Shown here piece after piece: positions 1,934 to 61,531 of a DNA stretch of 64,000 nt. The DNA comes from a virus: positions 124,001-188,000 of the IMG/VR virus record IMGVR_UViG_3300025364_000003. One strand, 5' to 3'. The stretch's first letter is position 1. Each line of letters begins with the position of its first letter. Position numbers and translations under genes: made by a program. The notes under the pieces are model-generated. The model had not been told where the DNA came from. It worked only from the letters and a program-made list of their open reading frames with translations, and searched no databases.

Positions 1934-3619
1934 TTAACGAATTCCGCTTCCCTCTTCAGCTTCAAGCTCGTTAGGTTTTCTAACGAGCTTTTTCTTTTCT
2001 ATATCATGACCCTTCACTTGTCCGACGTCTCTTAAATCGAACCCTGGCATTAGTGCAATTTTTTGCTTTGGAAAGCTTCCTCTTGCATTTGCATAACATG
2101 CTTGTCCAACAATCTCGGTAAAGGCTGCTGGAATTGCTTTTTTGGGCAAGAGTTTAGCATGTGCATTGAAAGCGGCCACTTCCCCTTTGTCACTAAAATC
2201 CACATTAGCCAAGATGTGAACAATATAATCATGAACAGCTCTAAACTTCAGATTTTGTTCAGGTGTAAACACATCATGTTGATTATAATCAGTTGATATT
2301 TTCAAAACGCCAGTTTTTTTAACTTCTTCGGACATTTCTTTCTGCGAATTATAAGGTTGCCCAGGAACAAACTCAACCTTTACCTTGGAAAGCATTCTCT
2401 GATACATTTTCTCAATATGTGAGATTAGTGCTTTATACGATGCAACAGCCTCAGGATCATAATCTGGGAGTTCATCATATGCATCTGCTACTAACTCACA
2501 ATATTTCTTGTAATTTGATAGAACCATTTTTTCTTGCAGGTGTCGGTCAAATCTTGCCTGGCTTTCATTTAGAGAATTGTGGACAACTTTGCCTGAGCGC
2601 TTATCAACAACCTTGAAATTGGGACTCCAAAATTTGGAGTAATCTGAAATGAATTGCTGCGGAAGGTTCCCATAGACAAGCTCAAGCACTTGTCCACGTC
2701 CTAAAACGATGGCAACAATTTTGTTTCGACCACTGAAACCAACTGGTTCTGTAATTCTTAAGGTTGTTTGCAGGCGCCACTCATCTTCTTTTGGAGGGAG
2801 CGCAAATTTTCTATATCTTTGTGAAAGCTTATCAAGAGCTTGTAAAAACTTCTTTTCTCCTTCTATAACATTAAATGTAGGGATTTCATTTTTCTGGTAC
2901 ATTTCTTGTGCAATTTCTCTAGCCTTTTCCCAATCCATCTTTTGTTCTAGGGCGTATTCATACGATTCAATATAGGCTTGCTTCGCCCTACCTTTCTTCA
3001 TGTCAACGTGACCCAAAACTCTTTCCATGGCTGCATCGAAAGTGTCTTGCATCATCGCCTTGTCCATTGGCATTTTTTCACTTGTCTTGAGTTTGTTATG
3101 CAAATTTGTGGCGAAGTCGGACATAAGTTCTTTATAAAAATTTGGGTCAGCATCAATGGTGCCTTTGGCCATTGGCACCGCTAAATCTAAATCTCTAGCA
3201 CCAAAATGTGAGCGTAACGCTTCTGCGAATGCTCGTTGTACAGGCATACGAACATCGTCTTCATCTGCTTTGGCAGATTGGGGCACGAGCTGAGCTACAA
3301 CAATCATCATTCGGCTTTCGCCACCAGTTGACATGGCATCTCTAGCAGAGCTATAGGCAGTTACAATGTTGTCAGTCCAATAGCTACCTTTCAGGGAATG
3401 CATTGACGGGCTTAGAATGGAACTCGCTTCAAGTTCTTCTTCGCCTTTCCAGCGACCTTCGGTTGGGTCTGGAATCATTCCGAGTTGGTAAATTTTTGGC
3501 AGATGTTTTGAACTTGTCCCGTGATACATTATCACGGGTTTTGCCCTCTTCCGCTCAAGAAGAAAATCAACTTCTTCTTTTACCAGTTTTTTGATGATAT
3601 TTTTGAGGTTATCGTTCAC
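1934..3619 (-). CDS. ADP-ribosyltransferase-like protein with N-terminal packaging-type tag
   Basis: This 561-residue protein begins with the shared amphipathic tag (NLKNIIKKLVKEEVDFLLE, residues 4-22). It continues with an ART-like core: 'VIMYHGTSSKHL' near residue 30, where YHGT matches the NAD-binding His strand of ART/PARP/KptA folds, then 'GSYWTDNIVTAYSSARDAM' near 80-100, the usual Y-x-T-x-x-x-x-A-x-x-(Y/S)-A segment. Candidate catalytic glutamates occur in 'GQVLELVYG'. The long C-terminal part is helical and unidentified. In T4, Alt is an ADP-ribosyltransferase packaged in the head through a similar tag, so an ejected enzyme modifying host proteins is a reasonable inference. The full catalytic triad cannot be confirmed by eye. 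Confidence 0.65.
   Translation of the reverse strand: MNDNLKNIIKKLVKEEVDFLLERKRAKPVIMYHGTSSKHLPKIYQLGMIPDPTEGRWKGEEELEASSILSPSMHSLKGSYWTDNIVTAYSSARDAMSTGGESRMMIVVAQLVPQSAKADEDDVRMPVQRAFAEALRSHFGARDLDLAVPMAKGTIDADPNFYKELMSDFATNLHNKLKTSEKMPMDKAMMQDTFDAAMERVLGHVDMKKGRAKQAYIESYEYALEQKMDWEKAREIAQEMYQKNEIPTFNVIEGEKKFLQALDKLSQRYRKFALPPKEDEWRLQTTLRITEPVGFSGRNKIVAIVLGRGQVLELVYGNLPQQFISDYSKFWSPNFKVVDKRSGKVVHNSLNESQARFDRHLQEKMVLSNYKKYCELVADAYDELPDYDPEAVASYKALISHIEKMYQRMLSKVKVEFVPGQPYNSQKEMSEEVKKTGVLKISTDYNQHDVFTPEQNLKFRAVHDYIVHILANVDFSDKGEVAAFNAHAKLLPKKAIPAAFTEIVGQACYANARGSFPKQKIALMPGFDLRDVGQVKGHDIEKKKLVRKPNELEAEEGSGIR
1964..1998 (+). terminator. Rho-independent terminator embedded in the opposing gene
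   Basis: A perfect 11-bp stem (AAGCTCGTTAG at 1964-1974, CTAACGAGCTT at 1980-1990) with a 5-base loop is followed by TTTTCTTTT on the + strand. It would stop transcripts of the GIY-YIG gene. It lies within the 3' coding end of the minus-strand gene at 1934-3619, so the last codons of that protein are shared with the hairpin. Confidence 0.8.
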
Positions 3620-13271: not shown

Positions 13272-14138
13272 GTGGGAAAACGAGGATTGGTATTAAGTGG
13301 TGGTGGTTCCAAAGGAGCTTACCAGGTGGGTGTTCTAAAAGCTCTTATGGAAGAAGGTAGGCAATATGATGTAGTATCGGGCGTGTCTGTTGGTGCACTT
13401 ATTGGAGCACATATGGCAATGTATCCGCCAGAAAAACAAGCAGAAAATTTTGAAGGTCTTTTCAAAATATGGACAGAGAGCGTCAAGGGAAACAAAAGTG
13501 TTTATAAACCCTGGGCTCCTTGGGTGTTGACTTATTTGTGGTCCTTTTGGAAGGGCGGTATCTATAGCATGAAACCACTTAGGGACATCTTAGCCAAGGA
13601 AATGAACACCGAAGAAATGAGAAAAAGTGGGGTTGAATTTGAAGTAGGCGTTGTTTCCCTTCAATCTGGGAAATATCGCTCAGTCAATCTTACGAGTGAT
13701 CCTGGAAACAATCAATTAGCTGTAGATTGGGTATGGGCAAGCTGCATTTTTCCTGTTCTGTTCCCAGCTGTAGAAATTGGTGGAGAACAATGGGTTGATG
13801 GTGGCCTAAGAAATACAATTCCAATTCTAGATGTCTTGAAATACTCAGACGTAACCGAAATTGATGTTGTTCTAACAGGTCCTCGTGATGGTTTTATTCC
13901 GTCTGAAGATAAAAAATATAACTCTGCTCTTGACGTGGGGTTGCGTACCGCTGGGTTTTTAGCTGATGAAGTGTTTGCTACGGACCTTGATGAGGTTTGT
14001 TGCATAAATAAAGTAAAACTTAACATTTACGATCCTGTAGATCTAGTAAACGAAGATAGCTTCAAATTTGACCCGGACGAAATTGCTCGGTTGATCGAAA
14101 GAGGATACCGTGAAACTAAAACAAAACTAGGCAAATAG
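13272..14138 (+). CDS. patatin-like phospholipase
   Basis: This 288-residue protein has the patatin fold signatures: the oxyanion loop 'GLVLSGGGSKGAYQVGVLKAL' at residues 5-25, the nucleophile elbow 'GVSVG' (G-x-S-x-G) near residue 44, and the dyad aspartate in 'WVDGGLRNTIPI' near 175. The family hydrolyses acyl chains of phospholipids. The start is a GTG with AAGGAG seven bases upstream. There is no signal peptide, so it acts in the infected cell's cytoplasm on the inner membrane, or on lipids once the membrane is breached; a role in lysis or in phage-phage competition is conjecture. Confidence 0.92.
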   Translation: MGKRGLVLSGGGSKGAYQVGVLKALMEEGRQYDVVSGVSVGALIGAHMAMYPPEKQAENFEGLFKIWTESVKGNKSVYKPWAPWVLTYLWSFWKGGIYSMKPLRDILAKEMNTEEMRKSGVEFEVGVVSLQSGKYRSVNLTSDPGNNQLAVDWVWASCIFPVLFPAVEIGGEQWVDGGLRNTIPILDVLKYSDVTEIDVVLTGPRDGFIPSEDKKYNSALDVGLRTAGFLADEVFATDLDEVCCINKVKLNIYDPVDLVNEDSFKFDPDEIARLIERGYRETKTKLGK

Positions 14139-44891: not shown

Positions 44892-44919
44892 AAAAAGCCA
44901 CGTCTAACGTGGCTTTTTT
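44892..44919. terminator. bidirectional Rho-independent terminator
   Basis: A perfect 12-bp stem (AAAAAGCCACGT / ACGTGGCTTTTT) with a CTA loop lies between the fibre gene (+) and the convergent HAD-like gene (-), whose stop codon touches its end. Confidence 0.92.
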
Positions 44920-45517
44920 ATTTAACTAATTCAATTTCTATTTGAACCTCTGGAAATTCTTCCACAAGTTTTTCCGCAGCTTGTACATTAAACAGATTGT
45001 CATCGAAGAATCGTAGAATTTTTATATTTCCTTGTTGAAGCTTACCCCTCAGATATGCTTGTTTTCTTGCAGCGTTTAGCTCACCAACATCACCCGTAGG
45101 CGTGAAATCTCCAACTGCTACAACTTCAACGTCCGGCATTCCTTGTTGGGATATGAATTCAATAATTTCATTGGCCGCTGGTCGTGCAGTACAAATAGAA
45201 ACCCCGTAAGGTCCTAGACGCTTGTAGTCGGCTTTCATTCGATCAAAATGAGGTAAAGTAACAGGATTTAAAATAACTCCAAAGTCTGATAAATCAAATT
45301 CTTCATCATCCTTAAGATGATATTCATGAAATTCGTGCGGCGATAGTTCTCTTGTTTTACCAGTTGTCTTATTTATTAAGTGAACAGTGCCTTCTGTACT
45401 GCAAAGTGTATCGTCAAAATCATAAACATTTAGCTCATTTGGTGCGTTATCAAATATTTCTCTCAATATTTTACTTGCATATTCTTTGATCAATATTTCT
45501 AATCTGGGCTTTGACAT
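44918..45517 (-). CDS. tagged HAD-fold hydrolase-like protein
   Basis: A 199-residue protein. Residues 4-24 are a variant of the shared tag (LEILIKEYASKILREIFD, with L-R-E). The HAD core follows: 'LNVYDFDDTLCST' (motif I, D-x-D-x-T), 'GVSICTARP' (motif II, Thr), and 'ILRFFDDNLFNV' (motif IV, two Asp). A conserved Lys is less clear ('ARKQAYLRGK'). The pattern resembles phage HADs similar to polynucleotide phosphatase/RNA repair proteins. Substrate unknown. If the tag means packaging, it is an ejected phosphatase. Confidence 0.75.
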   Translation of the reverse strand: MSKPRLEILIKEYASKILREIFDNAPNELNVYDFDDTLCSTEGTVHLINKTTGKTRELSPHEFHEYHLKDDEEFDLSDFGVILNPVTLPHFDRMKADYKRLGPYGVSICTARPAANEIIEFISQQGMPDVEVVAVGDFTPTGDVGELNAARKQAYLRGKLQQGNIKILRFFDDNLFNVQAAEKLVEEFPEVQIEIELVK

Positions 45518-49634: not shown

Positions 49635-50126
49635 ATGGCACAAAATTCTATAAAGAAGCCGTCTAAGCCTCGACGTCGAAGAAGCAAAAAGAAAAGCGGT
49701 GGGAGGGGTCACTACAAAACCGGTTATCACACTTCTCCTAAGTGTTCCAATGGCCCAGCAAAATATCGCTCTGGTTGGGAGAAAGTTGTTTGCGAAAGCT
49801 TGGATGCAGATCCGGATGTTGTAGAATATCAATACGAACCTTTTGAGATCAAATACGTTTCTAATCACAGAACTGGAAGAATAAGAATCTACATTCCTGA
49901 TTTCTTAATCACATACTCTTCCGGAGATAGAAAATTGGTTGAAGTTAAGAGAGAGAAGCATCTTGAACGACCAACAGTCAAAAAGAAAGCGTTGGTTGCA
50001 AGAGCTTATGCAAGCCGTAACGGTATGGAGTATCAGTTTTGGACAGAAAAGAAAATCAAGGAACTCCAGAAGATGCTAAAGAGTTCGAAGACCTCTTTGA
50101 CGAAAGCGAAGACGAACGAGAAATAG
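49635..50126 (+). CDS. head-completion nuclease, T4 gp4-like
   Basis: A 163-residue protein. After a basic N-terminus (KPSKPRRRRSKKKSGGRG), 'AKYRSGWEKVVCESLDADPD' and 'EYQYEPFEIKY' match gp4's (Y)RS-x-W-E and following strand. 'YIPDFLITY' and 'KLVEVKREK' give the P-D-(x)n-E-x-K nuclease signature. In T4, gp4 trims or completes the packaged DNA end before neck joining. Its position next to the gp13/gp14-like genes fits. Confidence 0.85.
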   Translation: MAQNSIKKPSKPRRRRSKKKSGGRGHYKTGYHTSPKCSNGPAKYRSGWEKVVCESLDADPDVVEYQYEPFEIKYVSNHRTGRIRIYIPDFLITYSSGDRKLVEVKREKHLERPTVKKKALVARAYASRNGMEYQFWTEKKIKELQKMLKSSKTSLTKAKTNEK

Positions 50127-50709: not shown

Positions 50710-51091
50710 TGGAACCTGGTGATATCGTTGTAGCAAAACGGTTAATATACCATGAAGGAATCAATATCAAAGGTGTTTGGTCATCTCCTAGTAGTCATGA
50801 ATCAAATCTTGTTTTGGCGATAAAATTTCTGTTTATTCTCATAAAGAAGCTTATTTGTTTACCGTATTGAGTGAAGGGCGTACGTTAGAAAAACATTATT
50901 CGGGTTATGAAGAATTTTCTAAAGAAGTTCTTCATGTTTCTAAAATTAAAGGGATGGTAATTGACTTCGATCCATTGGGTTCAAAAAGACCCCATATTGA
51001 AGGAATAGCAGCAGTTTTAATTGAAGACAAGGTTTGGTGGATAGTTGCTGGCGATCTTCAAGTAGTAAAGTTAGGCAAGGGTAAGCAATGA
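50710..51091 (+). pseudogene. small gene split by an apparent frameshift
   Basis: An ATG at 50710 opens a frame MEPGDIVVAKRLIYHEGINI that closes with TGA near 50870. The next frame, 50855-51091 (TTG start), continues with 'GDKISVYSHKEAYLFTVLSE' if read back into the overlap, and joins naturally at a TTTT run near 50812. Restoring one T gives a single protein of about 127 residues ending 'AGDLQVVKLGKGKQ'. This is either a genuine frameshift mutation or a homopolymer sequencing error. The stop overlaps the methyltransferase start by ATGA. Confidence 0.55.
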
Positions 51092-51735
51092 GTGCAACCG
51101 GAAGAAAAAAACACAACTCTAAAGGGAAGGCCGAAGAACGTGATCCTTTCGATTATTATCCTACGCCAAATTGGTGCATAAAACGCTTTGTAGAAAAAGC
51201 ATCGCACAGGTTGCCAGTTGGTAATTGGATTGAACCAGCAGCTGGCGATGGCGCAATCATACGTTCTATCACCTCTTATGGTAAGGGATATGAGAAAGTT
51301 CAATGGACTTCGGTTGAAATTCAAGATAGATTTAAAGAATCGCTTGAGGAAGTATCTGATAAAGTTTGTATTGGAAATTTTGCGTCTTATTTACATCCAG
51401 GCTCAAAAGCCGACGTGTGCATTACCAATCCTCCATACAAACTTGCTGAGTCAATGATTAAACATGCACAGACTCAGGCTAAATCCGTTGTTATGTTGTT
51501 GCGAATTAACTTTTTGGCAAGTGAAAAAAGACGTGATTGGATGGAACAAGATACTCCTGACATTTATGTTATTCCAAATCGTCCTTCGTTTCGTGGTAAA
51601 GGTTCTGACGCTACTGAATATGCTTGGTTTGTGTGGGACGATAAATCGTGTGGTAGAATTTTCATACTCGATTCAACGCCTCGGGGCGTGCGACAAGCAG
51701 AAAAGAAGGCTTTGAGACAAAAGCAAACTATTTAA
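51088..51735 (+). CDS. N6-adenine DNA methyltransferase-like
   Basis: A 215-residue protein. 'FDYYPTPNWCIKRFVEK' leads into 'NWIEPAAGDGAIIRSI' near 47 (SAM-binding motif I, E-P-A-A-G-D-G), and 'VCITNPPYKLAESMIKHA' near 110 carries the NPPY catalytic motif IV. 'VWDDKSCGRIFIL' closes the fold. Without a target-recognition domain of obvious size, the target is unknown. Phages use such enzymes to evade restriction. Overlaps upstream by ATGA. Confidence 0.85.
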   Translation: MSATGRKKHNSKGKAEERDPFDYYPTPNWCIKRFVEKASHRLPVGNWIEPAAGDGAIIRSITSYGKGYEKVQWTSVEIQDRFKESLEEVSDKVCIGNFASYLHPGSKADVCITNPPYKLAESMIKHAQTQAKSVVMLLRINFLASEKRRDWMEQDTPDIYVIPNRPSFRGKGSDATEYAWFVWDDKSCGRIFILDSTPRGVRQAEKKALRQKQTI

Positions 51736-51742
51736 TGTTGCT

Positions 51743-52489
51743 GTGTTACTCAAAGAATATATAAACTATCAAGTTGCTAGTGTCTTGCTCGAAATCAGAG
51801 GCACGTTCAAGTGGAATGAATTTAAGGCACTTAGTACCCTAGACCAAAAACTTCAATACGCTCAACAACATCTCAAGGAGCTTGGAAGAGGTAGCAGCAG
51901 GGCTGCCTTCCTACTAAGCAATCGATATGTTTTAAAGATTGCCCTTCCTCAAGCGGCAGAAAAGGGAATGGGGCAGAACAAAGGCGAGCTTCAGGTCTTT
52001 GCTAATACGGCAAGCAAGAATTATGTAACCGCTATTCATGACGCTGGCGAAGATGGCCATTGGCTCGTTTCAGAAATTGCACGACCACTTGCAAGCACAG
52101 AAGAATTTCAGAAGCTCACAGGGGTTCCCTGGGAACAGTTTGTTTCTATACTGAAAAATCATGAAGATATCAAGAGTGAATTTAGCGAGATCGAACAGGG
52201 CATTCAAATGTGGTCTCGTCGTCTCAAAAATGCTCAATCGCAGGGTAATGAAGCGGGTATTGACAAGTTTACAAAGAACGTTCAAAACCTTCAGCAAAGA
52301 AAAACAAACCTTCAAAAAATGTTAAATTCACCAGTGGTACAAGGTGCTCTTGCTTTGATGAATCAAGCTGGTGTTATGCGTGGTGATATTCTTGAAGTGG
52401 ATCATTGGGGCAAAACCGCTGATGGTCGTGTAGTTCTATTAGACTACGGCTTTACAGAGGACTTGGTTGACCTTTACCGAGCTGCATGA
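51743..52489 (+). CDS. tagged protein-kinase-like protein 1
   Basis: A 248-residue protein, GTG start. Residues 1-20 are a variant of the shared tag (YINYQVASVLLE|IR). The kinase-like pattern follows: Gly-rich loop 'LGRGSSRAAFLL' at 47-58, 'YVLKIAL' with the probable ATP-binding Lys at 65, a Glu helix (GELQVF), hinge 'GHWLVSEIARPL', catalytic loop 'RGDILEVDHWGK' in the place of HRD-xxxx-N with Asp for Asn, and 'VVLLDYG' for DFG near 230. It is the first of three tandem paralogues. Substrate unknown; packaging with the DNA is inferred from the tag. Confidence 0.75.
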   Translation: MLLKEYINYQVASVLLEIRGTFKWNEFKALSTLDQKLQYAQQHLKELGRGSSRAAFLLSNRYVLKIALPQAAEKGMGQNKGELQVFANTASKNYVTAIHDAGEDGHWLVSEIARPLASTEEFQKLTGVPWEQFVSILKNHEDIKSEFSEIEQGIQMWSRRLKNAQSQGNEAGIDKFTKNVQNLQQRKTNLQKMLNSPVVQGALALMNQAGVMRGDILEVDHWGKTADGRVVLLDYGFTEDLVDLYRAA

Positions 52490-53283
52490 TGAGACTGAAA
52501 GAACAAATACGCTTCATGGTTTTTCAAACACTTCATGAAATTAGGAGTAATTTCAAGTGGTCTGAATTTAAAAAGATAGATGATCACTTTGACAGGGCCT
52601 TGTACCTTATAAACACTGGTACTCAAGTATTAGGGGAGGGAACTTCACGTCTTGTATTTTTGTTAAGCAATAGGTTTGTGCTCAAACTAGCCCAACTAGC
52701 CCAACCTCTTCCACGTTCTCCTCGTAGTTTTGAGAGAGGGAAGGCGCAAAACAAATATGAAGTAGATTTGTCTACCGATCCAGATGTAAAACCAATTGTG
52801 GCCGAAGTCTATGATGCGGCCGATGATTACTCGTGGATTGTTTCGGAGTTGGTTCGACCAATAAAAAATATAAATGAATTTAAAGATTTAACTGGGTTTT
52901 CGTTCACTGATTTTCGCCAGGTTCTTAAACTTGTTTTTGAGGGCGAACTTGAAAATACCATTGAGAAACATCGCAAATTGCGACAGAGGTATATCGAAGA
53001 GATCAATCGACTTGACTCTGAAGATACGGCCGATAAAACAAATATTGAATACTACAAAAGCCAACTTGAGGCTATTGAAAAAGTTATTGAATATCAAACT
53101 GAATTACCCGAACACCCAATGGTACAAGCTGCTATTGAATTAATTTCTGATAAGGGTGCAATGGCTGCCGATATGATCGTGTTAGACCACTGGGGCAAAA
53201 CTGCCGATGGCCGTGTAGTTTTGTTGGATTATGGTTATTCGAGAGATGTAGCTAGAAAACATTATGATGTTACGTGGATCTGA
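52486..53283 (+). CDS. tagged protein-kinase-like protein 2
   Basis: A 265-residue paralogue coupled to gene 1 by ATGA. Tag 'QIRFMVFQTLHE|IR' at the N-terminus, then 'FKWSEFKKIDDH', 'LGEGTSRLVFLLSNRFVLKL', 'YSWIVSELVRPIKNINEFKD', a longer insert helix, 'AADMIVLDHWGKTADGRVVL' and 'LDYG'. The HRD-type Asp and DYG are retained. The region from DHWGK to DYG is almost identical in all three copies, which suggests strong constraint on the active site. Confidence 0.75.
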   Translation: MMRLKEQIRFMVFQTLHEIRSNFKWSEFKKIDDHFDRALYLINTGTQVLGEGTSRLVFLLSNRFVLKLAQLAQPLPRSPRSFERGKAQNKYEVDLSTDPDVKPIVAEVYDAADDYSWIVSELVRPIKNINEFKDLTGFSFTDFRQVLKLVFEGELENTIEKHRKLRQRYIEEINRLDSEDTADKTNIEYYKSQLEAIEKVIEYQTELPEHPMVQAAIELISDKGAMAADMIVLDHWGKTADGRVVLLDYGYSRDVARKHYDVTWI

Positions 53284-53307
53284 ACAAACAAAATCATATA
53301 TATTGTT

Positions 53308-54017
53308 ATGTTAGTTGCAAATCTTAAAGAACAAATACATTTCATGGTGTCGCAAACTCTTTTAGAAATTAGGAGTAATTTCAAGTGGTCGGAGTTTAAA
53401 GAACTTGAAACTCCTAAGGGAATGGCATATTACCTAGAAAAAACAGGCACCGAAAAACTAGGCAGCGGGTCTTCTAGATGGGTTTACTTATTGAGCAACC
53501 GCTATGTCTTAAAATTAGCTGATCCTTTAAATCCTCGTAGGGGACTGGCCCAAAATCATGCAGAACTTGAAGTTGCAACCGACTCAGTGTAGCTCCATTC
53601 GTGTCGCAAATTTTTGATTATGATCCTGATGGTTTCTGGTTGGTATCTCAACTTGTTAGACCATTGAATAGCGATGAAGATTTTGAAAAACTAACTGGTG
53701 GAATCGACTGGGAAGCATTTCAGTATGCCGTACAAACTTTTTTGTATGAAGCTAGGGGGGATTTTAAAAAAGCTGCTGATGAACTTGAGTTTAGGGCATC
53801 AAGGAGAAATTCTGATCATTATGCAGAAGTATTACTCAAGGCTCTTTCATATCTTAAGACAAACAAGTGGGTGAGAAATTTTCTAAAAATGGCAAAAAAA
53901 TACGATTTGCTTCCAGAAGATTTAACATTTTTAGATCATTGGGGCAAAACCGCTGATGGACGTGTAGTGCTTCTTGACTATGGTTATACGGCATTAGTTC
54001 ATGATCTACACTACTGA
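53308..54017 (+). pseudogene. tagged kinase-like protein 3, frameshifted
   Basis: The third paralogue reads from ATG at 53308 through 'QIHFMVSQTLLE|IR', 'LGSGSSRWVYLLSNRYVLKL' and 'AQNHAELEVATD', then hits TAG at 53590. In the neighbouring frame the homology continues without a gap ('VAPFVSQIFDYDPDGFWLVS', 'LPEDLTFLDHWGK', 'VVLLDYG') to TGA at 54015. One missing base near 53588 explains it. The C-terminal part alone is open from 53601. I see no heptameric slippery site. The result is a recent inactivation or a sequence error; the rest is intact. Confidence 0.7.
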
Positions 54018-54074
54018 CAATTCTCTATTGTCTAAACAATTATTTCTAAAATGCGTTCGACGTGGGTTTACTTA

Positions 54075-54082
54075 CTATTTAC
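54075..54082 (+). promoter_or_regulatory. CTATTTAC junction motif
   Basis: Lies four bases before the preferred start (ATG 54087) of the gp15-like gene. Identical to the octamer before the giant fibre gene. Its closeness to the ATG means it cannot act as a distant promoter for this start. Confidence 0.3.
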
Positions 54083-54086
54083 CCAT

Positions 54087-55304
54087 ATGTCCGGCAATGA
54101 AACTCGACAGAATATCCCAAGAGATCCAAGGAATCCTGAACCACATGTAGATTCTGGATATGAGGGTGACGATACCTCGGATACGTTTTTGATTCCGCCA
54201 GTTGGAATTGAAGATGCGGACATGACTCTGTTCAGACTTTTTGACAAAGATATTGGATTTACTGTTCGATTAGTAGAGACGGCAAACAAAGATATCCAGA
54301 TTAAAAAGCCTTTTGTAATTTTCGCTACTGGTGAACGATTTGTGCTTGCAAAGCGATTGCGTCCACCAAGAGATAGAAACGACAAATTGATGCTTCCGGC
54401 CATTTCTATCCGAAGAACATCTATTGAACAAACATCGCTGGACATTACTGGCAGAGGTATCAATCAGTTTACTGGCAATCTTGTCATTAAGCGACGTCTT
54501 GAAAAGGGAGACAGGGATTACCAAAACTTTATTAATAAGCTGGGGTTTAAAAACTTAAAAAATTCTTATTCTACCGAAAGAGAAACAGGCGAACTGAAAA
54601 ACGACGTTTCGGTGCAGCAAGGCGGGCTTTTAGAACAGAGAACCAGTTTGAATAACATGTGGGAAATTATCACAGTACCACAGCCACAGTTTTTTACTGC
54701 AACATACGAAGTAACTTTTTGGACTTCGTTTACCCAACACATGAATTATATGATAGAAACGTTTATCTCATCGTTTCTACCAAACGATAGAATACACAAG
54801 TTGGTAACCGACAAGGGTTACTGGTTTCTTGCTTACACGCAAGAACAGTTTGCGAATCAAGAAAATATTGATGATTTCACTGAAGATGAAAGAATTTTGA
54901 GGTACTCTTTCAATGTTCAGGTTAAAGGTTATATTTTCGCACCACAGCATCCAACTAATGCTGTTCCAGTGAGAAGATGGATTTCATCGCCAACGGTAGT
55001 TTTCGACGTAAGTTCATATTCTACCGAAGTGTTGGAGAAGGAACATCTAAATCGTCCACCGCAAAAAAACAAGGACAATCCGGAAAATTTCACATTGACA
55101 GACATTGAACTGGATCCCCAAACAAAACAGACTCCAACAACAAATGAAAGATTCGCTGTTCGAAAAGATATAATCGACCCGATCACAGGAAAGAGGAAGC
55201 GTCGTTACGTATCTATTTTAGAGTCCAATGAAAAAAAGGGAGAGACAGTTTACAGGGCATCCGACGTTGAAACATTGGAAGAGTTTATCAAGACACTCAA
55301 ATAA
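54087..55304 (+). CDS. tail terminator/sheath stabiliser, T4 gp15-like
   Basis: A 405-residue protein when started at MSGNETRQNIP (54087); an ATG at 54051 would add 12 residues. The segment 'FTATYEVTFWTSFTQHMNYM' with 'IETFISSFLPNDR' and 'ERILRYSFNVQVKGYIFAP' parallels T4 gp15 ('YELSIFTRYEDDMFQIVEQI', 'RRIEWSLTFEVNGWMYPP'). The N-terminal third is an addition compared with T4. gp15 caps the sheath and tube and docks the tail to the neck. It stands directly before the sheath genes, as expected. Confidence 0.75.
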   Translation: MSGNETRQNIPRDPRNPEPHVDSGYEGDDTSDTFLIPPVGIEDADMTLFRLFDKDIGFTVRLVETANKDIQIKKPFVIFATGERFVLAKRLRPPRDRNDKLMLPAISIRRTSIEQTSLDITGRGINQFTGNLVIKRRLEKGDRDYQNFINKLGFKNLKNSYSTERETGELKNDVSVQQGGLLEQRTSLNNMWEIITVPQPQFFTATYEVTFWTSFTQHMNYMIETFISSFLPNDRIHKLVTDKGYWFLAYTQEQFANQENIDDFTEDERILRYSFNVQVKGYIFAPQHPTNAVPVRRWISSPTVVFDVSSYSTEVLEKEHLNRPPQKNKDNPENFTLTDIELDPQTKQTPTTNERFAVRKDIIDPITGKRKRRYVSILESNEKKGETVYRASDVETLEEFIKTLK

Positions 55305-55385: not shown

Positions 55386-58300
55386 ATGGTTAGCCAAATT
55401 TTTAACTTTCCAGGCTTCTTCGATAGAGAAATCGATCTAACAGCCCAGATTCAGGAGCCAGTAGGCGTTCCAGCTGGTGTAATTGGTGGTGCCGAACGTG
55501 GTCCGGCATTCGTCCCATTCACTGTTGGATCATTTGCTGATTTCCGAACTCGCTTCGGCGATCTAAATCCAAGATATGCTGCGCCATACGCAGTCGATAG
55601 ATTCCTGGAAAACAGGACAGCACTTACCTTCATCAGAATTCTTGGTGCGGGTGCCAATGAGACGTCAAGTGATATCGAGACAACTCGTTTGCAAGGAACA
55701 GTCAAAAATGCTGGATTCCGTCTAAGTGGAACTCTCAGTTCCGTTAACCCAGCTACTACTAATGGTGCTGTTCAATTCCTCGTCGCTCGCCACGTTGTTA
55801 CTGCTTCAGAAGCACTCGGAATGCCGATGTTTTCTGACAATAATTCACTTCTTACCTCGGGTTCGAACGACGAGGTTTACCTTACTCGTGGTGTTATTTT
55901 CGCTGCGTCAGGTACTCGAATTCAAATTCTAAATGGAGATGACAGCAACGAGCAGTACAGCAGCTTTGTTGATGACGTTGCAACTGTAAACTCTGCAAGC
56001 AGAGAATTCAAAATTGTTATTTCTTCATCGGCTGGTGCGTCGTTTGGCAATGACGACGGATTCCCTGGCGTTAGAATTCTAACCGCTTCTCTGAATCCAA
56101 GTTCTGATAACTACTTTGCCAAGCTGATGAATACTGATCCAGAAAGGTTCAGCGACGAAAAACATGTGGTCTATGCTGATTATGCAGTCGATGCCGAACT
56201 CGCAAATGTTGGCACTGGAAGCGGCGATGTTGCTATTGCAAGCGGTAGCATTAACACTTCTTCTACTTCTGGCAACACCTCTCTTCCATTCCTAGAGGCG
56301 TTCGGTCGTTTTGACACCAGATTCACAACTCCAAAAACACCTTGGTTTATCTCGCAACCATATGGCAAAACTGAGTATGACCTCTTTTACATTGAAGCTG
56401 TTGATGATGGCGCATACGCAAATCAGCGTTTCAAGATTTCTATCACCAATCTTCTCAAGTCTTCAAATGTTCGTGATAAACACGGAACTTTCACACTTGT
56501 TGTAAGAACATTTGATGATACAGATGCCGAACCACAGATTCTTGAGCAGTTCAACAACCTTTCTCTTGATCCGGATTCGGACAACTACATTGCTAAGGTT
56601 ATTGGAGATAAGCGTGCTCGCTTCAACTTTGACGCTGAAGCTGAAGAAGATCGTCGCCTTCTCACCACTGGCAAGTTTGAAAACAGAAGCCGATACATTC
56701 GAGTATTTGTTTCTGACCAGGTAGCACAAAAGAAGATTCCTGAAGATGCTGTTCCATTCGGCTTCCGAGGAACTGCTCCATTGAGCACCAACTCACTTCT
56801 TTCTGATACTGCTGGGTCGGCGGCCCTAGCAAGACTTGCTTTGTCGGGTGCAACTGATCCACGTCTTGCGTGGTCTATAGTACCTCCTCTTCCATACCGT
56901 TATAAGGTAACAAGAGGAAATGCAGCAACCAATCCGGGTTTCGAAGGTGCTCCAGGAGCAACCGAATTAACTGATGCACGTTATTTTTGGGGGGTCAAGA
57001 CTTCTAGAAACACCAACGCACTGAATCCAAACATTGTCAATCTTCCAAACCAGTTGGTCAACAGCTACACTAAGTTTGCAGGTATTGAAAAACTTGATGT
57101 ACTTGTTACAGGTTCAGCTAAAGATGATTTCAACAACAATAAGTTTACGCTTGCTCGTGTTGCGCTAGGAAATGCATCACTCAATGATGTTACATCATCA
57201 GCCGCAATCCACATGAAAGAAGCTGCTTATCTTCGTAACAGAACGCCAGATGGGTTCGAATACAAGATAACTGATGAAATTTCTGGTCTGGATAGAATTA
57301 CATTTGCCACCCTTTACCAAAAGGGCACGTCTGCTGCCGACTTCAACAAGTTCACCAACTTTGCAAAGTTTACCTCTATTCTATATGGTGGTTTCGATGG
57401 CGTCAACATTCTTGATAAGAATGCAGCTACATTTAATGACCGTTCCACTTCAACAGAAACTGCTGGAAGCGAGGTTGGAAATGCAGCATCTACTTTCACT
57501 TCACCTGGACTTAACGAGAACGTAAACGGATTTGGTACTTCAAACCAGACTGTTTTCGCTTATCGAAGAGCTTCAGAGATTATCACTGATGCAATCGCAT
57601 CTAACATCAATCTGCTTACTATTCCAGGTCAGCGTGATCCGTTGGTCACAGACTTTGCTGCTGATGAAGTTCGTGACTTTGGTCTTGCTTTCTATGCCAT
57701 GGATTTACCAGCATATGACTCTGATGGTAACAGAATTTGGGACAATCAAACTTCAAGATTTATCGACATCGAACAGACTGCAAATAACTTTGAGCAGCGT
57801 GCTCTTGACAATGAGTTTGCAGGTGCTTACTTCCCAGATTTCGTACTTGAGGATGATGTAAACAGGCGCAGAGTAACCGTTCCAGCTTCTGTTGGAGCAC
57901 TTGCAGCACTTGGATTCAATGACCGTGTTGCTTATCCTTGGTTCGCACCAGCAGGCTTCAACAGAGCAGCTCTTGATTTTGTACAGCTTACAAAGACAAG
58001 AATTAAGCAACCAGAACGTGAACGTCTTTTTGACATTCACATTAACCCAATCGTCAAATTCCCTGGCGAATCTGGTTTCGTAATCTTCGCACAAAACACG
58101 CTTGAACAAGCCGAGTCTGCGCTCGGCAGTATCAATGTTGTTCGAATGTTGAATGAACTCAAGCGCAGGATAATCGAGATTGGCAACCGAGCAATCTTCG
58201 AACAGATTACTCCGGAAATTTACACTGAACTTGATAGGAGATTCCGCAGCGTTCTTAACCTCATTTCGGCTCGTGCTGGTATTGAGAGATTTGATGTCAT

Positions 58301-58445
58301 CGTTGATGGCAGAAACAATACAAACCTTGATCGTGAGAACAATAGAGTCAATGCTCGAATTGTGCTCGTTCCAACGAGGGCGGTTGAGTTCATTGCAATT
58401 GACTTCATCATTACTAGAAGCGGCGTGTCGTTCGATGCCGTATAA
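55386..58445 (+). CDS. tail sheath protein 1
   Basis: A 1,019-residue sheath protein (T4 gp18 is 659). The N-terminus 'GVPAGVIGGAERGPAFVPFT' with 'FADFRTRFGDLNPRY' and 'FLENRTALTFIRILGAG' is the classic sheath domain. The C-terminus 'DIHINPIVKFPGESGFVIFA', 'LEQAESALGSINVVRMLNEL' and 'VNARIVLVPTRAVEFIAIDF' is the conserved core that interlocks with the tube and neighbouring subunits. The middle holds large inserted domains. Contraction drives DNA ejection. GGAACGG precedes the ATG. Confidence 0.95.
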   Translation: MVSQIFNFPGFFDREIDLTAQIQEPVGVPAGVIGGAERGPAFVPFTVGSFADFRTRFGDLNPRYAAPYAVDRFLENRTALTFIRILGAGANETSSDIETTRLQGTVKNAGFRLSGTLSSVNPATTNGAVQFLVARHVVTASEALGMPMFSDNNSLLTSGSNDEVYLTRGVIFAASGTRIQILNGDDSNEQYSSFVDDVATVNSASREFKIVISSSAGASFGNDDGFPGVRILTASLNPSSDNYFAKLMNTDPERFSDEKHVVYADYAVDAELANVGTGSGDVAIASGSINTSSTSGNTSLPFLEAFGRFDTRFTTPKTPWFISQPYGKTEYDLFYIEAVDDGAYANQRFKISITNLLKSSNVRDKHGTFTLVVRTFDDTDAEPQILEQFNNLSLDPDSDNYIAKVIGDKRARFNFDAEAEEDRRLLTTGKFENRSRYIRVFVSDQVAQKKIPEDAVPFGFRGTAPLSTNSLLSDTAGSAALARLALSGATDPRLAWSIVPPLPYRYKVTRGNAATNPGFEGAPGATELTDARYFWGVKTSRNTNALNPNIVNLPNQLVNSYTKFAGIEKLDVLVTGSAKDDFNNNKFTLARVALGNASLNDVTSSAAIHMKEAAYLRNRTPDGFEYKITDEISGLDRITFATLYQKGTSAADFNKFTNFAKFTSILYGGFDGVNILDKNAATFNDRSTSTETAGSEVGNAASTFTSPGLNENVNGFGTSNQTVFAYRRASEIITDAIASNINLLTIPGQRDPLVTDFAADEVRDFGLAFYAMDLPAYDSDGNRIWDNQTSRFIDIEQTANNFEQRALDNEFAGAYFPDFVLEDDVNRRRVTVPASVGALAALGFNDRVAYPWFAPAGFNRAALDFVQLTKTRIKQPERERLFDIHINPIVKFPGESGFVIFAQNTLEQAESALGSINVVRMLNELKRRIIEIGNRAIFEQITPEIYTELDRRFRSVLNLISARAGIERFDVIVDGRNNTNLDRENNRVNARIVLVPTRAVEFIAIDFIITRSGVSFDAV

Positions 58446-58501: not shown

Positions 58502-61500
58502 ATGACTCAAATTAATTTCAAAAGTGCAGGAGTTTCAGCCAGGGTTATCAACCTTACTGGCCCAACAGCAATTCAACCTGTTGGAATCCCAGCTGGTGTG
58601 ATCGGAACTGCTGTAAAGGGACCTGCATTTGTTCCTGTAACTTTTGCAACAACGCAGGACTTTACGGTTGTATTCGGACTTCCAGAAGACAACAAGGCAA
58701 ATGGACCACTTGCTGTGGGCGAGTGGCTTCGTAATAGACAAGCAGCAACTTACCTTAGGGTTCTTGGTGCTGGTCAAGCCAAGAGAAGAGAACAATCTGG
58801 AGAGAATCAGGGTAAAGTTCAGGGTGCAGGTTTTGTTGTTGGTGACGAACAGCCACAAGCTGGTGGAGCATTGGATAACAACATGTACGCCAATGAAGGG
58901 GGACCTCTAGGGCGTTTGTATTTCCTAAACACCTTTATGTCAGAAGCAAACGGTTCGGGTTTTCTTACTGACGCTGGTCTCCCTGGTGAGGGAACGCCAA
59001 TCGTTAGGGCAGTTCTTTTAGCTGCTTCCGGTGTTATCATCACCCTTTCTTCGTCACTTTCTGCATCGACAATGGTTCCAGGAGCAGCTCCAGCGTCAAA
59101 CCTTGTTGCCACAGAAGAAAATAAGAGCGGTTCATTCCTAGGCTCCGTCAACCTCTCCGGCGGCAGACAGGAATTTGTGATGTTCTTGAATGGTCACAAG
59201 GGAACTGATCCTCTATTTCCCAATGTCATTACTGCATCTTTTGATGTTGACGCACCAAATTACCTTGGCAGTGCCCTTAACACCGATCCTTTCAACCTTG
59301 AAAAGGCAGGTTACTTGCTTTATGCCGATTACTCGGTTCATCCAAACCTTGCAACCGTTACTGGTTCTTCTGTGGTCGATACCACTACTGATGAAGTTGT
59401 AGGTGGAGGTTTGGCAGCTGGATTTGAACCAATCGCATTCTTGGCAACTGGTTCATTGTCTCGAAACTCCGGCTCAACCGTAGTACCAAGTTATGAAAAC
59501 TGGGAAGATAGATACACTACGCCAAAATCACCTTGGATTGTTTCACAGAGGCTTGGCGGCAAGCCAAGAAATCTCTTCAGAATTCATCTTTTGGATGACG
59601 GTGCTTGGGGCAACGATCAGGTCAAATGGTCTGTTGAAAACATTGTTCCGGCAATCAATGATGTAAACCCTTATGGAACTTTCGACCTTCTCATCCGTCG
59701 TTTCAACGACATCGATAAGAAACGTGAGGCAACTGAGGCTTGGAGAGGGCTTTCACTCAATCCAAGCTCCGACAATTACATTGCTAGAGTGATTGGTGAC
59801 CTCAACACCTTCTACAACTTTGATGCTGCCGAAGGTAACCAGAAGATTCAAACTACTGGCGAGTATCCAAACCAGTCCAAGGTTATCAGAGTAGAAGTCT
59901 CGCCAGACGTTGAAAACGTTGAGTTGGATGCTTCGGCTCTTCCGCTTGGTTTCAGAGGAATTCCACACTTGGTAACCTCGGGAACTGCACCATTGGCTCC
60001 ATTAGGCGAAGCACTTGCAGACAGCGTTCTTATTACTGGCTCTTCTGATCCAGCTCACAATGTCGTACAGATGCCAGTTCAGTTCCGCAGAAGCCTTAAC
60101 CTTGGTTCGGTTACCAGCCGTCGTGTAGACAAGGGCCTCTATTGGGGTATTCAGTTTACTCGTCAGCTTTCAGTTGAAGAGCCAAACTCAACAACCGAGC
60201 CAGAAAGAACTATTGCCAACTTCACCAAGTTCTTCCCTAAGCATCAGACTGATTGGTTGAATGTTGTCGTCAGCGACAATGAAGGAGTGGCAGATGCGGC
60301 AGAAACCGGTATTCTTGATGCGGATAGGTTCAATAACAACCTATTCTCTCTTGAGAACATCAGGATCGTAAGAGATCCGATCACGAATCTTGCTGACACT
60401 ACCCAGCTTGTAAGTTGGAGTTATGTAAGAGCCGGAAACGTAGCTACCTCTGGTTCGGTTAGAGCATTGACAGCTGACGATTTGTCGGATTCATCTGTAA
60501 GGCAGGTTGCTAAGTTCAGCGGAATTATCCAGGGCGGATTTGATGGTGTTAGAATCTTTGATGAAGACACTGCCAATCTTACCAACCTCGCAATTATCGA
60601 AGAAATGGACAACACAAACAGGGGAGTGTCGAATGGTCCTACCGTAAAGGCTTATGATACCGCTTTGGATATCATTGCCGACGACACCGAAACTGATATC
60701 CAACTTCTTACCATCCCAGGAATTAGACATCCACAGATCACCGATGACGCTCTACAGCTTATCGAGGAAAGATTTGATGCAATGTACATCATGGATCTTC
60801 CAGAGTATGACACCACAAATCAACTCGTTACTGCTTCCTCACAGGATTTGAGCGTTAGATTTACCGCAAATCAGCACCGTGATCGAGGTTTGAACACTTC
60901 CTTCGGAGCAGCTTACTTCCCAGACGTAATCTTGAGGGATACACTCAACAACACTATTCGACAGGTTCCGCCTTCGGTTGCTGTTCTTGGTGCATTCGGT
61001 CTCAATGATGCAGTCGGATTCCCATGGTTTGCCCCAGCAGGTTTTGCACGTGGCGCCCTACAGACAACTGAAGAATCTACGCTTCCATTGTCCCGTGACA
61101 ACATGGATGCGCTTCAAGATGTCAAGATTAACCCACTTGTATCCTTTGCAGGATCGGATGGTGTTGTAGTCTGGGGTCAGCGTACTCTACTTGCTCGTGA
61201 TTCTGCACTTGAGAGAGTCAATGTACGTAGACTTCTCATTCAACTTAGAAGAGATGTTCGCCGTGTTGCTCGACGCTTCGTATTCGAACCTGGTCGTGCC
61301 GAAACGCTTGCAAGATTTTCTCAGTTGGTAAACCCAATCTTGAAGAGGGTGCAGGACCAGAGAGGCGTGGAGAGATTCCTTGTAAGAATTGACACCACAA
61401 CTACTACACAAGCCGACATTGAAAACAGAACGGTTCGTGGAAAGATTTTCCTTGTTCCAACCAGAACTTTGGAATTCTTGTCCATCGACTTCGTCGTTAC

Positions 61501-61531
61501 CAATCAAGGCAATTTCGTTTCATCGCAATAA
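58502..61531 (+). CDS. tail sheath protein 2 (paralogue)
   Basis: A 1,009-residue sheath protein with the same architecture: 'GIPAGVIGTAVKGPAFVPVT', 'WLRNRQAATYLRVLGAGQA', 'YFPDVILRDTLNN', 'DVKINPLVSFAGSDGVVVWG' and 'VRGKIFLVPTRTLEFLSIDF'. It diverges from paralogue 1 mainly in the middle. Two complete, intact sheath genes suggest a mixed sheath or alternative segments rather than a failed duplication. GGAGAG precedes the ATG. Confidence 0.95.
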   Translation: MTQINFKSAGVSARVINLTGPTAIQPVGIPAGVIGTAVKGPAFVPVTFATTQDFTVVFGLPEDNKANGPLAVGEWLRNRQAATYLRVLGAGQAKRREQSGENQGKVQGAGFVVGDEQPQAGGALDNNMYANEGGPLGRLYFLNTFMSEANGSGFLTDAGLPGEGTPIVRAVLLAASGVIITLSSSLSASTMVPGAAPASNLVATEENKSGSFLGSVNLSGGRQEFVMFLNGHKGTDPLFPNVITASFDVDAPNYLGSALNTDPFNLEKAGYLLYADYSVHPNLATVTGSSVVDTTTDEVVGGGLAAGFEPIAFLATGSLSRNSGSTVVPSYENWEDRYTTPKSPWIVSQRLGGKPRNLFRIHLLDDGAWGNDQVKWSVENIVPAINDVNPYGTFDLLIRRFNDIDKKREATEAWRGLSLNPSSDNYIARVIGDLNTFYNFDAAEGNQKIQTTGEYPNQSKVIRVEVSPDVENVELDASALPLGFRGIPHLVTSGTAPLAPLGEALADSVLITGSSDPAHNVVQMPVQFRRSLNLGSVTSRRVDKGLYWGIQFTRQLSVEEPNSTTEPERTIANFTKFFPKHQTDWLNVVVSDNEGVADAAETGILDADRFNNNLFSLENIRIVRDPITNLADTTQLVSWSYVRAGNVATSGSVRALTADDLSDSSVRQVAKFSGIIQGGFDGVRIFDEDTANLTNLAIIEEMDNTNRGVSNGPTVKAYDTALDIIADDTETDIQLLTIPGIRHPQITDDALQLIEERFDAMYIMDLPEYDTTNQLVTASSQDLSVRFTANQHRDRGLNTSFGAAYFPDVILRDTLNNTIRQVPPSVAVLGAFGLNDAVGFPWFAPAGFARGALQTTEESTLPLSRDNMDALQDVKINPLVSFAGSDGVVVWGQRTLLARDSALERVNVRRLLIQLRRDVRRVARRFVFEPGRAETLARFSQLVNPILKRVQDQRGVERFLVRIDTTTTTQADIENRTVRGKIFLVPTRTLEFLSIDFVVTNQGNFVSSQ

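Follow-up and report, generated by a model that had tools for sequence, protein, structure and literature searches.

The window analyzed here is a stretch of 64,000 nucleotides, corresponding to positions 124001-188000 in a phage record of 206,528 bases. Positions 51743-54017 of the window hold three paralogous genes in tandem, of which the first two are intact and the third is split. P1 (51743..52489, + strand) begins with GTG and encodes 248 amino acids, and its stop is overlapped by the start of P2 (ATGA; 52486..53283, + strand, 265 amino acids). P3 consists of a first part with the N-terminal tag and the N-lobe (53308..53592, + strand, 94 amino acids) and a second part that contains the catalytic block and lies in another frame (53601..54017, + strand, 138 amino acids; this frame is open from 53571). 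Both halves of P3 are intact and collinear, and over their full length they can be aligned with P2 and the copies at locus L023 of another record, so that the split points either to a recent frameshift by loss of one base near 53,590 or to an error in sequencing or assembly. In profile searches all three paralogues matched PHROG 4301, a family of unassigned function, with E values of 3.6e-15 for P1, 1.2e-12 for P2, and 2.5e-8 and 0.035 for the first and second parts of P3. These matches, together with the mutual identity of 36-64%, indicate that the likeness of the three proteins is not due to chance. No further copy was found in the whole 206,528-base record.

The three genes are located in a neck-tail operon, and the source is a large phage of the T4 type. 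Directly upstream of P1 is a DNA methyltransferase-like gene (51088..51735, + strand; phrog_799, E 1.6e-44), which adjoins the kinase genes also in L023 and L059, and the neck module includes a head closure or endonuclease-like protein (49635..50126, + strand; phrog_218, E 1.3e-20). Directly downstream of P3 is a likely tail sheath stabilizer similar to T4 gp15 (54051..55304, + strand), named from a weak match to Pfam T4-gp15_tss that lies under the cut-off (E 0.0038), and then a tail sheath protein (55386..58445, + strand; phrog_23, E 9e-38). The sheath gene is itself one of a tandem pair (55386-58445 and 58502-61531), whose products have approximately 1,010 amino acids each and a mutual identity of only about 31%.

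Synteny, divergence and distribution of the family

Homologues of the gp15-like protein that are 44-88% identical to it are encoded directly after a kinase gene in L023, L057, L058 and L059. Two kinase copies (L023 and L059) or one (L057 and L058) are immediately followed by the gp15-like and tail sheath genes in these loci, and the genes ahead of the kinases are also shared with the window. Copy number thus ranges from one to three across the syntenic loci, and tandem copies are also present in L084, L087 and L056. P1 and its L023 counterpart share 60% identity, and P2 and its orthologue there 54%, compared with 72-88% for the neighboring proteins; the kinases diverge faster than their flanking genes.

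This setting bears on the reading that the proteins are neck or tail assembly factors, that is, late kinases that phosphorylate or scaffold tail or neck proteins, for which injection would not be needed and the N-terminal helix would be a docking helix. The position kept in all of these loci, between the head-closure, RuvC and methyltransferase genes and the sheath-stabilizer and sheath genes, is in agreement with such a role, and a neck-tail operon would also suit a structural protein. However, the varying copy number and the fast evolution relative to the neighbors argue against it, as do other members of the family that are encoded elsewhere in genomes, away from tail genes, and unrelated ORFs of the same phage that bear similar tags. 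An assembly role is considered unlikely.

A block of 17 residues, DHWGKTADGRVVLLDYG, which had been described as nearly identical among the paralogues, is fully identical as protein in P1 (52400..52450), P2 (53185..53235) and P3 (53934..53984; all + strand). In pairwise comparisons, synonymous changes were found in 6-10 of the 17 codons and non-synonymous changes in none. Since the residues are the same despite these changes, the block is under purifying selection in all three copies, P3 included, and recent gene conversion is ruled out as the cause of the identity. The result also bears on whether the genes are selfish or decaying duplicates without a function, as the frameshift in P3 and the variable copy number might suggest. 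Selection on the block in every copy and the presence of orthologues of both P1 and P2 in L023 disfavor this explanation, which is regarded as very improbable.

Divergence is uneven along the proteins. In most syntenic pairs the tag, the N-lobe and the catalytic part are 45-94% identical, and the middle arm 13-37%. The expectation that the active part would be conserved while the rest diverges was therefore supported, as the catalytic part is conserved and it is the middle part that changes fast. To judge from these alignments, conserved ends with a divergent arm would fit a fixed activity with changing targets; alternatively, the divergence of the arm may reflect relaxed constraint.

Named relatives in PHROG 4301 include proteins of Rhodothermus phage RM378 (p074), Alishewanella phage Slicko01 and the Salmonella phage Munch group, in which CPT_Munch_046 has the database name 'putative protein kinase'. 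A search with the Munch protein returned 56 records, mostly from jumbo phages of Escherichia, Klebsiella and Salmonella, and some of the Salmonella and Escherichia jumbo-phage members are likewise annotated as putative protein kinases. Scans of IMG/VR added approximately 65 further loci with relatives; a candidate relative at L005 was rejected because the match spans just 22 residues and no family member is encoded there. Across 84,980 species genomes the tagged clade was not found, which argues against recent transfer from a cellular source, and another clade was found only in two contigs of Bacteroidota metagenome-assembled genomes, which may be phage. PHROG 4301 is, from this near-absence, mainly a phage family. 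The preliminary description had recognized no described family for these proteins. That statement does not hold for the family, which is PHROG 4301 with some members deposited as putative protein kinases, but it does hold for the tagged, tandem form without a C-lobe, of which no description was found in the material searched.

In some relatives from PHROG 4301 the domain forms part of a very large fusion protein of 820-2200 amino acids, and tRNA-nucleotidyltransferase and GNAT domains are present in some of these. The protein at L081:5926-11025, for example, has an N-terminal kinase-like domain followed in Pfam searches by GNAT and tRNA-nucleotidyltransferase matches, and the giant kinase-like fusions at L089:5926-10323 and L090:5911-11340 look like it by eye.

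Kinase fold and active site

Structure prediction and comparison with kinase folds had been proposed as a check on the kinase assignment; a kinase fold was predicted, and the assignment was thus not refuted by this check. The AlphaFold2 model of P1 (mean pLDDT 92.3, pTM 0.82) shows the N-lobe and the active site of a kinase, comprising beta1-beta3, helix C, beta4-beta5, helices, the catalytic loop and beta7-beta8; strands were placed at residues 45-49, 53-57 and 62-67 and a helix at residues 69-87. In Foldseek searches of solved structures the model matched APH(2'')-IIIa (E 4.9e-5), PRPK (E 2.3e-4), methylthioribose kinase (E 3.3e-4) and PknB (E 9.4e-4). Sixteen chains had E values below 1e-3 with a probability of approximately 1, and all of the matches listed were kinase folds. 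The TM-scores were low (0.3-0.4), perhaps because the helical arm is long and the C-terminal subdomain is missing. The relative at L026 matched the same classes of kinases more weakly. At the sequence level, the family profile matched the N-lobe of SteC (E 0.0026) among PDB sequences and the catalytic part of TP53RK at chance level (E 1.8), while phmmer with P1 alone against PDB sequences gave no usable match. No Pfam kinase family (Pkinase, APH) matched P1-P3 above the curated cut-off, and there was one Pkinase match (E 0.018) among 53 family members. Other Pfam matches of P1-P3 (SesA, Ufd2P_core, TUDOR, NPV_P10 and others) were set aside as noise, being under the cut-off and fitting the helical arm. 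That P1-P3 have a kinase fold is nearly certain.

The identity of the best structural matches raises the question of whether these proteins, like aminoglycoside phosphotransferases, phosphorylate a small molecule, either a metabolite or a signaling nucleotide. APH(2'') and methylthioribose kinase are indeed the top matches, but PRPK/Bud32 and PknB score nearly equally, the C-terminal substrate lobe of APH is not present, and the long, fast-diverging helical arm of the clade is better suited to protein targets. A small-molecule substrate is thus improbable.

In the numbering of P1, Gly50, Arg53, Lys65, Ala67, Gly75, Gln78, Asp234 and Gly236 are present in 53/53 aligned members, and Glu82 and Asp215 in 52/53 each. 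Lys65 is the nucleotide-binding lysine of beta-3, Glu82 the glutamate of helix alpha-C, Asp215 the catalytic aspartate and Asp234 the metal-binding aspartate, and their spacing is kinase-like (17 residues from Lys to Glu, 19 from Asp to Asp). The proteins of the window carry the Gly loop, the V-L-K lysine, the Q-N-x-x-E glutamate and D-Y-G. Most of the kinase motif set named in the preliminary description was therefore recovered, including the aspartate of the catalytic loop, but in this loop, described there as HRD-like, the window proteins have no His or Arg before D215. The position of the catalytic-loop Asn is occupied by His (H221) in these proteins, and in the 53 members by His (27), Ser (16), Asn (9) or Thr (1). 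The replacement of Asn by His and the missing His of HRD could mean that catalysis is altered or lost.

The C-terminal side also departs from canonical kinases. The chain stops approximately 12 residues past DYG, and the family median is 13 residues past DxG, the longer tails that were inspected being of low complexity. Because the chain ends so soon, there is no activation segment and there are no helices F-I; both the P1 model and the chain ends in the family indicate that the helical C-terminal subdomain is absent.

These departures would be expected if the proteins were packaged pseudokinases, nucleotide-binding folds that block a host protein or a defense component with no phosphotransfer. 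The missing HRD His, the His or Ser at the Asn position in 43/53 members and the missing subdomain all point in this direction. On the other hand, the Lys, the Glu, both Asps and the Gly loop are near-invariant even in very divergent members and strictly kept between the paralogues, whereas pseudokinases have usually lost one of these residues. A pseudokinase function is rather unlikely, and the residue conservation argues that the window kinases are probably catalytically active; with the HRD His missing and His in place of Asn, catalysis is probable and not certain.

N-terminal tags

Each paralogue opens with a helix of 17-20 residues that has L-x-E at its end and directly precedes the domain. 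The tag of P1 is MLLKEYINYQVASVLLE (51743..51793, + strand), ending L-L-E; that of P2 is MMRLKEQIRFMVFQTLHE (52486..52539, + strand), ending L-H-E; and that of P3 is MLVANLKEQIHFMVSQTLLE (53308..53367, + strand), ending L-L-E. The first 20 residues of the P1 model, which include this helix, have its lowest confidence (pLDDT 64). L/I-x-E occurs within the first 32 residues of 44/53 members, compared with 20.6 +/- 3.3 in shuffles, although the motif is short and the shuffle test ignores both the relatedness of the members, which inflates the result, and the composition of amphipathic helices. The leaders of divergent members differ and yet still end in L-x-E, such as MKTFNQFLIE (L095) and MKFADFLLE (L087, L091), which as sequences appear to resemble the propeptides of T4 internal proteins. 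In the member from Alishewanella phage Slicko01, MKIYNLYSTLLE precedes the domain. Against a packaging role, there is no tag in the relatives from jumbo coliphages or in L058 as called. The claim of a packaging-type tag is in line with the L-x-E N-termini of P1-P3 and with their enrichment among relatives.

An S77 prohead protease is encoded in the same record (L015:13183-13803; phrog_207 E 1.2e-44, PF03420 E 5.6e-22), and in 11/14 of the records longer than 100 kb that hold relatives. Similar leaders are also found on other ORFs of the phage. A HAD-like protein (44918..45517, - strand) carries the leader LEILIKEYASKILRE before VYDFDDTL, and an ADP-ribosyltransferase-like protein (1934..3619, - strand; PHROG 3170, function unassigned) carries the tag NIIKKLVKEEVDFLLE before VIMYHGTS, both being assigned by motif only. 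The tagged ORFs of the record were also counted by regular expression, but the pattern had been designed after the sequences were seen, and the count was not used as a test. Taken together, the tag, the protease and the leaders on other ORFs support packaging well, and the window kinases are probably packaged in the head.

The HAD-like protein shows the motifs VYDFDDTL, CTARP and FFDDN, and with these and a leader like that of the kinases it is a possible packaged phosphatase. A second protein, at L016:8971-10224 (+ strand), has two YHGT motifs of the ADP-ribosyltransferase type; like the protein at 1934-3619, it had no Pfam match. ORFs of L016 near the major head protein have a second type of leader, approximately RWxxLAGLxxES (record positions 194848, 198231, 202103, 202506 and 204230).

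Proposed action and related systems

Our preferred reading is that P1-P3 are injected kinases that act on host targets, and we give all of its steps together a probability of roughly one half. The first 17-20 residues would serve as a capsid-targeting propeptide, which the prohead core would bind and the S77 prohead protease of the phage would remove by cutting after L-x-E. According to the model and the conserved residues, the protein freed in this way would consist of the kinase N-lobe, the catalytic loop and the DYG metal site, and would lack the helical C-terminal subdomain. As their front ends resemble the head-loading tags of T4, the kinases are probably injected with the DNA; the injected protein would then spend ATP on the phosphorylation of host targets, most likely proteins, and this would precede phage gene expression. 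The fast-diverging helical arm, which lies between the N-lobe and catalytic loop, may set the target, in which case the tandem copies would differ in their targets. More tentatively, kinases without a C-lobe may be a family widespread in phages that, together with the tagged ADP-ribosyltransferase-like protein and the tagged HAD-like protein, forms a diversified set of head-delivered effectors, with the kinases directed by their arms and phosphorylating the host before transcription.

Early modification of host proteins has been proposed for the gp0.7 protein kinase of phage T7, which is an early gene product made after infection and not packaged. It is likened to the window kinases by description only, as a phage kinase with a proposed early action on the host. 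No characterized virion-packaged phage kinase and no virion proteomics of a PHROG 4301 member were found in the literature searched. Within PHROG 4301, the other members share with the window proteins the pattern of Gly loop, Lys, QNxxE, Asp and DxG. The Munch-type proteins have 196 amino acids, no tag and Asn in the catalytic loop, whereas the window proteins carry the L-x-E tag and have His in place of this Asn; their helical arm is longer, and their genes stand in tandem within the neck-tail operon.

The kinases of polyvalent proteins, which are predicted to be injected by phages, have lost the C-terminal subdomain and kept the active site (Iyer et al. 2017, PMC5512222). The window proteins are similar in that they lack this subdomain and retain the active-site residues, but they are stand-alone and tagged. 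The corresponding profile, PF18762 (Kinase-PolyVal), had no match in the record and none over the cut-off in seven relatives (none at all in six, and in the seventh a 61-residue, stop-containing match at another place). On these comparisons the window kinases would resemble the polyvalent-protein kinases, with membership of that group unsupported by PF18762.

In T4, gp21 cleaves after L/I-x-E, a stretch of ten IPIII residues is enough for targeting, and Alt is injected (PMC9026906). The window proteins are like IPI-III and Alt in having a short N-terminal propeptide ending L/I-x-E and an S77 protease in the genome; unlike these, they would have a kinase fold as the cargo, their tag sequence is different, and their packaging is a prediction. 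Alt is a precedent for a virion that brings a protein-modifying enzyme into the host. If the window kinases are packaged, then the orphan family PHROG 4301 would gain a role, short tags of this kind would be markers of injected effectors in T4-type phages, and the proteins would represent a natural minimal kinase without the C-terminal subdomain.

Several further features were observed in or next to the window. PADLOC gave a sub-threshold match only, and no defense system was therefore assigned. An ORF at 13272-14138 contains motifs of a patatin-like phospholipase (GGGSKGAYQVGVLKAL and GVSVGA). Just upstream of the window, the phage encodes a GroEL-like chaperonin (L015:18121-19788; phrog_5725, E 8.6e-149). 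The portal ORF (L015:8164-12199) includes, close to the N-terminus, a region of the HNH endonuclease type, and the ORF ahead of it begins with the same MARNESFFQRL; the portal gene looks like one that contains a mobile intron or an intein.
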